Below are positions 10,936-30,198 of a stretch of 32,066 bases of DNA, piece after piece. The position numbers and the translations under genes were made by a program. Under the pieces are notes generated by a model. It was not told where the DNA came from and made no database searches. It worked only from the letters and a program-made list of their open reading frames with translations. Where the stretch lies: positions 1 to 32,066 of the forward strand of contig JAUXIB010000007.1 in assembly GCA_030621225.1 (NCBI GenBank). The letters run 5' to 3'. Numbering within the stretch: position 1 is the stretch's first letter; every line of letters starts with the position of its first letter. Source of the DNA: a candidate division FCPU426 bacterium (lineage in GTDB: Bacteria > Oederibacteriota > JAUXIB01).

Positions 10936-11171
10936 CAACGATAGTCTGTTTTTTGGGCGGATAGGCGATGGTAACGTTTTTTTAGATAACGACATAAGAC
11001 GGTAAAAAGACAGGCAAAAACGTCGTGTCGTCGTGGTGAAAAAACGGAGTGTTTTATTGGTGTTATCCAGGAAAAGACGTTCCTCTGTGTCCTTTGTGAC
11101 TTTGTGGTGAAGAGAAGAGGGTGAATTATAAATTTTCAACTAAGTACGGTAGGTTGTTGGTGAAAAAATCT

Positions 11172-11199
11172 GTCCTACTTCGCTAAAGCTTCGTAGGAC
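11172..11199 (-). repeat. GNA-loop hairpin element
   Basis: Minus strand: GTCCTAC-GAA-GCTTTAGC-GAA-GTAGGAC. Confidence 0.85.
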
Positions 11200-11202
11200 T
11201 GG

Positions 11203-11230
11203 ACCCTTCGTAGCCTTGGCGTAGTAGGGT
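11203..11230 (+). repeat. GNA-loop hairpin element
   Basis: ACCCTTC-GTA-GCCTTGGC-GTA-GTAGGGT. Confidence 0.85.
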
Positions 11231-11313
11231 GTAATCTGTGAAATCTGTGGATAAAGACGTTCCTCTGTGAACTCTGTGGCTTAGTATTATAAATTTCAAT
11301 GAAGAGGTAAAAA

Positions 11314-21504: not shown

Positions 21505-21524
21505 GCGCTAGTAAGTACCAGCGA

Positions 21525-21550
21525 CCCTACTTCGCTAAAGCTACGTAGGG
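21525..21550 (-). repeat. GNA-loop hairpin element between SDR and aldolase genes
   Basis: Minus strand: CCCTAC-GTA-GCTTTAGC-GAA-GTAGGG. Confidence 0.85.
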
Positions 21551-21569
21551 CAAGCCAGCGACGAGATAT

Positions 21570-27060: not shown

Positions 27061-27193
27061 AACGCTGAAAGAACTAACCATCAGGGTTGGACGACTCACA
27101 TCCATGACGGAGTGACTGTCACCATGCCTGAAAAGGTCTAAGATCCATAGTTAAGTTGTTCAAAATAGTTTTCCTGCCCCCCCCATTTTTGCC

Positions 27194-27222
27194 TGCCCTA
27201 CGAAGCACTGCGTAGCAGGGCA
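27194..27222 (+). repeat. GNA-loop hairpin element
   Basis: TGCCCTAC-GAA-GCACTGC-GTA-GCAGGGCA. Confidence 0.75.
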
Positions 27223-27360
27223 TAGTAGTGTCAGGCCTGTCTCGCCGTAGTCTCTGACGACGGCGGAGGGCGGTGTTAGAATGTTATTGGGGGAATAGAG
27301 GCCGCGCGAAGCAAAAACAAGAAAAGATTGGAATAGAACATCCCCCCCTTGCCCGTTGTC

Positions 27361-27414
27361 ACACCTGCGGACCTGTCTCGCCATAGCTCAAAGAGCGATG
27401 GCGGAGGCAGGTGT
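27361..27414. repeat. ACACCTGC...GCAGGTGT palindrome with a second hairpin in its loop (filled form)
   Basis: Inner CGCC-ATA-GCTC-AAA-GAGC-GAT-GGCG at 27379-27403; empty form at 8738-8760. Confidence 0.85.
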
Positions 27415-27484: not shown

Positions 27485-28203
27485 ATGCCGCCTGCCCTGA
27501 GTTCCACCGAAGGGCTACCAAAAGAATAATCTGCGTAATTTTTGTGTCCAACCCCAACTTCAAACCATTAAAACCAAGAATGCTCCCCTGTTAGCGAAGA
27601 ATTTCCCTCGTCGTCATCAAGAGAACAATCTGTGTAATCTGTGTAATCTGTGGATAAAGCCTTTCCTCCGTGACCAGCGCCGTTCCCGGGATCCGCTTCT
27701 CCCCGTCGCCTTTCCTCCGTTTCGGATGTGTGTATCCGGTATCCTGCTTGCTCTACGTAGCCTCCATGTCTCCCTGCCTTTAGCCGCCTGCCCTGAGTCC
27801 ATCGAAGGGTTATCAAAAGGAATTTCTCTGTGACCTCTGTGTCCTCTGTGGCTAAAGCCTTTCCTCCGTTTCGGACGTGTGTATCCGGCATCCGTAATCC
27901 GCGTAATCTGCGATTAGAATCCGCGTAATCCGCGCCTAGAATGTGCCCTATAATTGTGCACTGCACTGATTTTGTACACCAAATCAGCGGTTTTCGCCAA
28001 ACGAGTCGGCCTTCGCATCTGCACGTATCAGCTTCCTATCCTCGAATATCAGCACATTTGTCATTTTTCTTACTTTTGGCATGAATAATGCGACCAAATT
28101 GTTTAGATGGTTGTGTCGTTACACACCGGGGGTGTGCTTGGTTTTTCTGCGGCTAACTTGATCAGCGCCGTTCCCGGTATCCGGTTTCCTGGAAGCGCCG
28201 TTA

Positions 28204-28340: not shown

Positions 28341-28649
28341 GGGATGATATCAAGGCGAGGGTGATATGCCCGGACGGTGAAGCGCCGTTCCCGGCTTGCC
28401 CTTCGTCTTGTCCGCCATAGCCGAAGACGACGGCGGAAGCCCCCCCTTCCCGTCTTCCGACAGAAGACAGGGGGGCGGAGTAGGGTATCCGGTTTCCTGT
28501 ATCCGGCATCCGCCTCAGAGCAGGGTATGTTCAGATGACTCAGCGAGACCTAGCCTAGGCGAAAAGAACAGCATAGTGCCCCCGCTGTTCCTGGTCTCGC
28601 TATTTTTTTAGAATATCGCTCAATCAGCCATAATATTGGCATGTTTTAG

Positions 28650-28862
28650 GGGCGAGGCGCACTTGGCAAAAATAGCCTGCCCTGCACCTGACCTTTTGGG
28701 AATGGTACAGGGTCAAATGCCTGCCCTACGAAGCTGGCCTGTCCTACGTAGCGCCTTGCGCGTAGTAGGAAGCGAAGTAGGGTCACTTGTCCGTCGTAGT
28801 CTAGCCGAAGACGGACTTGTCCTACGAAGTCTAACGGACGAAGACGGAAGCTCTGACCCCTT
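28650..28862 (+). repeat. Composite GNA-hairpin element, copy 1
   Basis: Starts ggggcgaggcgcacttggcaaaaatagcctgccc; contains nested hairpin 28724-28782 and GTCCGTC-GTA-GTCTAGCC-GAA-GACGGAC 28789-28816; ends gaagctctgacccc. Confidence 0.85.
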
Positions 28863-29584: not shown

Positions 29585-29706
29585 CTTGTCATTATGCGTA
29601 TAGTTTTGCTCGTAGCGAGCGAGTCACCCCGGCTAGGACGAGGGGATCAGGTCCATGAACCATTCACGCTAGTGACGAAGGAACCGCGTCTAGAATTGTG
29701 ACTTTT

Positions 29707-29853
29707 GGAGGTGAGCGGCACTTGGCAAAAATAGCCTGCCCTACGAAGCTGGCCTGTCCTACGTAGCGCCTTGCGCGTAGTAGGAAGCGAAGTAGGGTCA
29801 CTTGTCCGTCGTAGTCTAGCCGAAGACGGAAGACCTGGCCCCCTTTTTTATGG
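29707..29853 (+). repeat. Composite GNA-hairpin element, copy 2
   Basis: cacttggcaaaaatagcctgccctacgaagc...; nested hairpin 29739-29797 identical to copy 1; hairpin 29805-29830; ends gaagacctggccccc. Confidence 0.88.
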
Positions 29854-29901
29854 CACCTCTGTTGAGACGAAGGGACCGCGTCTAGAATTGTGAATTTTTG
29901 G

Positions 29902-30122
29902 GTCGAGGCACACTTGGCAAAAATGCTTGCCCTACGACTTGTCCTTCGAAGCTTTCTTGTCCTACGTAGCGTAAAGCGCGAAGTAGGAAGCGAAGTAGGG
30001 TCAAATGCCTGCCCTTCGTAGCACGAAGTGCGAAGTAGGGTCACCTGTCCTACGAAGTCTAACGGACGAAGTAGGACTTGTCCTACGAAGCTCTTCAAGC
30101 GAAGTAGGAAGACCTGGCCCCC
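29902..30122 (+). repeat. Composite GNA-hairpin element, copy 3 (tandem hairpins)
   Basis: Hairpins at 29960-29988, 30012-30040, 30047-30077 and 30081-30109; ends gaagacctggccccc. Confidence 0.88.
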
Positions 30123-30198
30123 TCATATTCTATCCCCTTGCGGCACAGTCTGCATTTTTCCGGGGCGGTTGACATTTTTGATTTCGACTGGGATAATC

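Follow-up and report, generated by a model that had tools for sequence, protein, structure and literature searches.

A REP-like DNA hairpin with a CYTG tag and a GNA/GNA internal loop that probably moves, folded as a single strand, into loops of other palindromes

Hairpin copies in the window and their layout

The window is a stretch of 32,066 nucleotides at the start of contig JAUXIB010000007.1 from a candidate division FCPU426 bacterium (2.6 Mb; the own genome in what follows). The genes between positions 271 and 27060 are those of sugar catabolism and include a GH94 phosphorylase, a LacI regulator, a fucose isomerase, an alpha-L-fucosidase, an FGGY kinase, a short-chain dehydrogenase, a class II aldolase, and ThuA. 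A first-pass annotation of this DNA had described at least ten hairpins in which GNA trinucleotides face each other between an outer and an inner stem, and all eight copies listed there read as written (29960-29988, 30012-30040, 30047-30077, 30081-30109, 11172-11199, 21525-21550, 11203-11230, and 27194-27222). With the covariance model R1, built from an alignment (A1) of 92 sequences from many organisms and run with its filters off, 12 matches were obtained in the window at an E value of ≤0.0022, with weaker ones beyond. The copies and their relatives in the window are as follows.

11170..11202, minus strand: minus half of a head-to-head dimer (R1, 43.7 bits)
11200..11232, plus strand: plus half of the dimer with 11170..11202 (R1, 35.3 bits)
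21522..21554, minus strand: single hairpin, CTTG tag (R1, 48.6 bits, the top score in the window)
27192..27223, plus strand: single hairpin, CCTG tag (R1, 21.3 bits)
28407..28440, plus strand: diverged relative, tag CTTG, stem TCCGCC/GGCGGA, internal ATA/GAC (weak R1 match, E = 0.084)
28720..28782, plus strand: outer hairpin, tag CCTG, stem CCCTAC/GTAGGG, with the 28738-28770 unit in its loop (arms pair 6/6 around the inner unit)
28738..28773, plus strand: inner nested unit of CCTG tag, 29-nt hairpin, and host AGC (R1, 32.2 bits)
28786..28818, plus strand: hairpin, tag CTTG, stem TCCGTC/GACGGA (R1, 27.2 bits)
28816..28851, plus strand: hybrid copy, 5' arm TCCTAC, 3' arm GACGGA (weak R1 match, 22.5 bits in the genome search)
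29753..29788, plus strand: inner unit within outer hairpin 29739-29797, near-copy of 28738-28773 (R1, 32.2 bits)
29801..29833, plus strand: hairpin, tag CTTG, stem TCCGTC/GACGGA (R1, 29.2 bits)
29938..30000, plus strand: outer hairpin, tag CTTG, whose loop GCTTT^AGC contains unit 29956-29988 (taking out tag plus hairpin restores GCTTTAGC)
29956..29991, plus strand: inner unit of CTTG tag, 29-nt hairpin, and host AGC (R1, 35.8 bits)
30008..30043, plus strand: hairpin, tag CCTG, stem CCCTTC/GTAGGG (R1, 29.9 bits)
30044..30077, plus strand: hairpin, tag CCTG, inner stem GTC/GAC (R1, 20.2 bits over 30048-30076)
30077..30112, plus strand: hairpin, tag CTTG, inner stem GCT/AGC (R1, 37.0 bits)

The copies at 29960-29988, 28742, and 29757 are thus nested within a second hairpin of the GNA family. 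The stretch from 28715 to 28815 is 99% identical to the region of the 29753..29788 unit, and near-identical copies of hairpin 30008..30043 are present elsewhere in the genome. The window arrays at 29643-29842 and 29880-30123 lie within cassettes with GTCTAGAATTGTGA..CTTGGCAAAAAT in common and GACCTGGCCCCC at their end; the first of them (29643-29842) starts with GGGGATCAGGTCC.

The unit consists of an unpaired 5' tag of four bases, mostly CYTG, and an imperfect palindrome of about 26 to 33 nt, and its layout can be written as CYTG, TCCTNC-GNA-GC..loop..GC-GNA-GNAGGA. In the palindrome, the outer stem has 6 bp, the internal loop is C-GNA-G/C-GNA-G, and a GC inner stem, which varies, ends in a short loop. 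The tag, which the first-pass annotation had missed, was CYTG in 167 of 237 aligned matches. Outer 5' arms include TCCTAC, CCCTAC, TCCTCC, TCCTGC, TCCGCC, TCCGTC, TGCTCC, and GGCTGC, each of which pairs with its own 3' arm; the first pair of these stems is mostly T-A and the second C-G, and the 3' flank is AGC, TCG, TGG, or another sequence. A search that asked only for the tag, Watson-Crick pairing of the outer stem, and an inner stem gave 38 hairpins, 24 of them with GNA on both sides. At the N position, T or A prevails in the 5' trinucleotide and A in the 3' one; the N is therefore not free. Of 237 matches, 28 had ATA rather than GNA as the 5' trinucleotide. Related hairpins with an internal loop of ATA (5') and GAT or GAC (3') lie at 27367-27405 and 28407-28440 of the window.

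Covariation and occurrence of the hairpins

Two-sided changes in the stems of the 92 aligned sequences numbered 125, against a mean of 32.5 after shuffling (0 of 500 shuffles as high), and occurred in seven of the nine stem pairs. Of the stem cells, 98.1% were paired, a percentage that is partly circular because the rows had been picked for at least four of five outer pairs. Given this selection, the independent evidence comes from the collection scans, through their inner loop and their outer N/N position, which was left unconstrained and was C-G in 96, G-C in 55, A-T in 14, and T-A in 10 of 244. The pattern CCTACGNAGCN{3,20}GCGAAGTAGG had 33 exact matches in the 2.6 Mb of the own genome and 0 when reversed. 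CGNAG..CGNAG cores with at least five further contiguous outer pairs were counted in 1.87 Mb of loci, many of which had been fetched for holding the motif; there were about 298, and 5 after reversal of the sequence. A chance origin of the pattern is excluded. The single strand-specific architecture, the stem covariation, and the keeping of the G..A positions, all claimed earlier, are borne out by the collection scans, the covariation analysis, and the search that did not require GNA. Stem covariation and variability of the GNA positions had been named as tests of the original proposal, and both outcomes leave it standing.

The first-pass annotation had also proposed a covariance-model search of the source genome and its relatives. 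At R1 E values of ≤0.01, more than 100 GNA hairpins, a lower bound, were found in the own genome, where they are mostly intergenic and include dimers or clusters. Among 59 relatives not picked for the motif, 22 had matches and 13 had at least six (rich relatives). Several genomes within the phylum, and one from another, reached counts of 25 to 83; the richest relatives had 83, 48, and 41 matches, the 41 being in another phylum. The pattern used to scan the collection has 18 fixed bases and ten gap lengths, and dozens of chance matches are expected from it across genome contigs; we therefore argue the breadth of occurrence from tagged and paired matches and from R1 counts. Paired copies, most of them tagged, were found (by record titles and sequences) in Kiritimatiellia, Lentisphaerae, Verrucomicrobia, Planctomycetes, and Binatia and also in Deltaproteobacteria, alphaproteobacteria, Bacteroidetes, and several Patescibacteria. 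Phage contigs carry copies at gene borders, and the viral contig L217 has genes for a terminase, a portal, a maturation protease, and a major head protein. As phages and Patescibacteria with small genomes both carry GNA hairpins, the hairpins may travel with phages. A search of named phages and plasmids with one 35-base query hit no phage and gave two weak matches, both to Sinorhizobium.

Contigs L217, L172, and L249 hold 7 to 9 hairpins per 8 to 15 kb of phage contig, mostly at gene borders. In these and in L191, the 3' arm often abuts the stop codon (TCA) or overlaps ATGA, and at one orthologous phage gene border the inner stems differ yet remain paired. That copies beside start codons serve as translation signals is speculation.

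Insertion sites and the strand of the motif

Empty and filled versions of the same target were found side by side. In genome G052, where regions had been picked around filled copies (the ratio of empty to filled sites therefore means little, and the sharp lengths are unaffected), copies of the host palindrome GGACTGGTTTTAACCAGTCC and its covarying versions fall into three sizes of center: 22 have 1 nt there, 18 have 31 nt, and 2 have 32 nt. In the filled palindromes, the 30 or 31 nt gained are exactly tag plus hairpin, the target is not duplicated, and three host types were each seen both empty and filled. A CGTC-type repeat in the own genome has a loop of 4 to 6 nt when empty and of 37 (4 + 33) nt when filled, and in L173 a GNA unit lies within a CGTCATCCCGG..CCGGGATGACG palindrome. 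GNA hairpins also host one another: with tag plus hairpin taken out, GCTTTAGC, GCCTTGGC, or GCCTCGGC is restored, and such nesting was found in the own genome, in L153, and in the phage-collection contigs L229, L233, and L248. The flanks of units were complementary beyond shuffles, with a stem of at least 8 in 18 cases versus a mean of 1.1, and in 5 versus 0.2 in an independent set. Independent insertions are fewer than filled sites, since a composite, once filled, may have spread as a whole. At orthologous loci of the congeners G024, G028, and G038, presence/absence differences were seen, with edges blurred by other repeats.

Most GNA copies are monomers. Eight distinct head-to-head dimers, with a spacer of 4 to 5 nt, interrupt CTCTGTG-, CTTTGTG-, AATCTGTG-, or CTTGGTG-type repeats, the insertion point being CTG^TG in six, TTG^TG in one, and TGA^TG in one; in the same sequence, 14 CTCTGTG and 20 AATCTGTG repeats are uninterrupted. 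The window dimer (11170-11232) is one of the six CTG^TG cases and sits at TCTG^TG of a AATCTGTG repeat, an empty copy of which lies at window position 27628. Tandem-like short repeats CTCTGTGnnCTCTGTGnnCTCTGTGG and AATCTGTGnAATCTGTGnAATCTGTGG occur many times in the own genome (window 27628-27665, 27827-27860, and 11230-11260; loci L331-L390), in many cases with TAA or ATAAA after them, and are used by dimers as insertion sites. Dimers, nesting, and empty/filled sites had no place in the first-pass annotation; it is from them that the mobility of the DNA unit is evident.

Host replication and repair alone might duplicate or swap hairpins by template switching and slippage at palindromes, with no dedicated enzyme. 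Palindromes are prone to slippage, and tandem duplication or mixing of arms is seen in some arrays (window 28816-28851; G024 versus G028 near L443:13526). However, the tag, the GNA positions, and the unit length recur in unrelated phyla, inserted units differ in stem from their host palindromes, and filled minus empty is exactly one unit; we regard this explanation as quite unlikely.

The covariation could also reflect the folding of an RNA element, such as a stabilizer of transcript 3' ends, a terminator-like structure, or a protein-binding site. The predicted RNA fold is stable (−10.4 and −13.5 kcal/mol; z of about −2.2), as is expected of any such palindrome, and the phage copies lie at gene borders and sometimes overlap a start codon. 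Against this stands the orientation of the motif, which was on the same strand as flanking tandem genes in 52 cases and on the opposite strand in 48 over four genomes (28/29 in the own genome, 11/9 in G024, 11/9 in G052, and 2/1 in G020); counts of copies inside open reading frames, which rest on a crude caller, were left out. A further 12 copies in the own genome lie between divergent genes. At Rfam gathering scores the window had no match, and Rfam over the hairpin arrays gave one chance-level match (E = 2.8). Precise insertion into palindrome loops is, moreover, a DNA event. Because the strand of the motif is random relative to flanking genes, the GNA hairpin does not generally function as an RNA element, and we consider this origin of the covariation very unlikely, while an RNA role may arise at single places after insertion. 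The earlier proposal that the folded form is maintained as RNA or single-stranded DNA accordingly holds for the architecture, the covariation, and the conserved G..A positions and is not upheld for a general role at the RNA level. In a weak test on short contigs, the motif strand showed no bias relative to GC skew, such as transposition on the lagging strand might leave.

It is probable, in our judgment, that the GNA element is a REP-like mobile DNA hairpin, moved as a folded single strand into palindrome loops. The unit, read on one DNA strand, would act as a folded single strand and would be copied or moved as a monomer or a head-to-head dimer. Its targets would be sites prone to single-strandedness, mainly the apical loops that other palindromes form, and would be entered without duplication. 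A putative trans-acting single-strand nuclease or transposase would cut and join the unit. Loop insertion, strand specificity, and the absence of target duplication fit the cutting and joining of folded single strands, and a protein of the HUH type is our leading guess for the moving enzyme. Because the units are exact (30, 31, or 33 nt), the targets defined (palindrome loops or, for dimers, short tandem repeats at TG-flanked sites), and empty and filled sites available within one genome, the insertion mechanism becomes testable.

Relation to known repeats and to Y1 transposases

REP repeats are well known; the manner of their spread is not. The CYTG tag resembles what we take to be the CTTG target of IS91 elements. 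Cyanobacterial small dispersed repeats of 20-odd bp, reportedly described by Elhai and co-workers in 2008 as mobile and without a known transposase, are like the GNA hairpins, by description only, in tiny size and mobility.

GTAG-tagged REPs (GTAG-3 or group 2; Escherichia coli REP with TnpA-REP/RAYT; PMC3733652, PMC8266576, PMC6006769) are, as are the GNA hairpins, high-copy and mostly intergenic palindromes of 20 to 50 nt with an unpaired 5' tetranucleotide, dimers, clusters, and compensatory stem changes. The likeness to group-2 REPs extends to the stems, an outer one and an inner GC/GC one that varies in length, with two or three noncomplementary bases between them (PMC3733652, PMC8266576). 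Unlike GTAG REPs, the GNA hairpins carry a CYTG tag (GTRG in 0 of 237 matches) and a fixed C-GNA-G/C-GNA-G zone, are inserted in the loops of other palindromes, and had no RAYT linkage that we could find. REPs with GT[AG]G lie near five TnpA subclasses, and atypical structures lie near TnpA subclass 2.6 and class 3 (PMC6006769), beside which the GNA hairpins can be set by description only. CGTC-tagged REPs, including Neisseria dRS3 and rickettsial RPE-4/RPE-6, have no dedicated transposase (PMC3733652) and are likewise tagged palindromes with head-to-head dimers in several phyla. They differ in tag (CGTC, TGTC, or CCTC, found in 1 of 237 GNA matches), loop, and stem, the latter being of 8 to 9 bp, starting with AT pairs, and followed by a 3' CCA tail, whereas the GNA hairpin has a 6-bp stem and other flanks; both kinds occur in the own genome, where the CGTC type hosts GNA units. 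REPINs/BIMEs (REP doublets; PMC3116915, PMC8266576) share with the GNA dimers two inverted hairpins repeated as a unit, but GNA copies are mostly monomers, whose insertion is directly visible in the empty/filled sites. Elements of the IS200/IS605 type (TnpA Y1; PMC8266576, PMC6006769) have strand-specific hairpins, a 5' guide sequence, and single-stranded DNA action, the last presumed for GNA hairpins as well; insertion without target duplication and a tag as putative guide tetranucleotide match this type, but the GNA unit has about 30 nt in total and no open reading frame. As the GNA hairpin carries neither the GTAG nor the CGTC kind of tag, we place it among the REP kind, outside both superfamilies. 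Among the matches listed in a literature search with the 11-base core words of the repeat, which covered few subscription papers, all were unrelated, and GNA hairpins are apparently a widespread relative of REP repeats, undescribed so far.

Were the hairpins classical REPs, a TnpA-REP (Y1 HUH) transposase of the same genome would cut next to the tag. The layout of tag, outer stem, mismatch zone, and inner GC stem would suit this, and a search with PF01797 (Y1_Tnp) in the own genome, 50 motif-bearing genomes, and the 59 relatives found seven genes in the own genome and at least one in 42 of the 50 motif-bearing genomes and in 11 of the 13 rich relatives. However, Y1_Tnp was also present in 26 of the 37 relatives without matches, so that co-occurrence was not above background, and it was absent from G020 (99% complete, 25 matches) and G028 (98% complete, 6 matches). 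The strict pattern was within about 1.5 kb of 0 of the 7 own Y1 loci, and a GNA copy was within 1.5 kb at 1 of 30 Y1 loci of motif-bearing genomes, some loci being cut by contig ends. At that one locus (L265:1300-2130), the Y1_Tnp gene is flanked by different hairpins, TAGCCCCGGGCGTAAGCCCGGGG, with one GNA hairpin 160 bases past the stop codon. Together with the lack of GTRG tags, this makes cutting by a same-genome TnpA-REP unlikely. RAYT linkage was rejected as a candidate, none being found in the own genome, the 50 motif-bearing genomes, or the 59 relatives. Rich genomes without a Y1 transposase suggest that another enzyme can move such hairpins. That the CYTG, GNA/GNA hairpins of many phyla and phages form a third large REP-like superfamily, inserted into loops by an enzyme that is not one of the known REP transposases, is a possibility we put forward tentatively.

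Two further features of Y1 genes in the own genome were observed. The gene at L032:1140-2000 is bracketed by inverted repeats, AGTGACAGTCACGGTGACTGTCAC, of the TIR type and unrelated to GNA hairpins. Ends like those of the window cassettes also flank some Y1 transposase genes (L033, L035), and the array cassettes may thus be nonautonomous elements.
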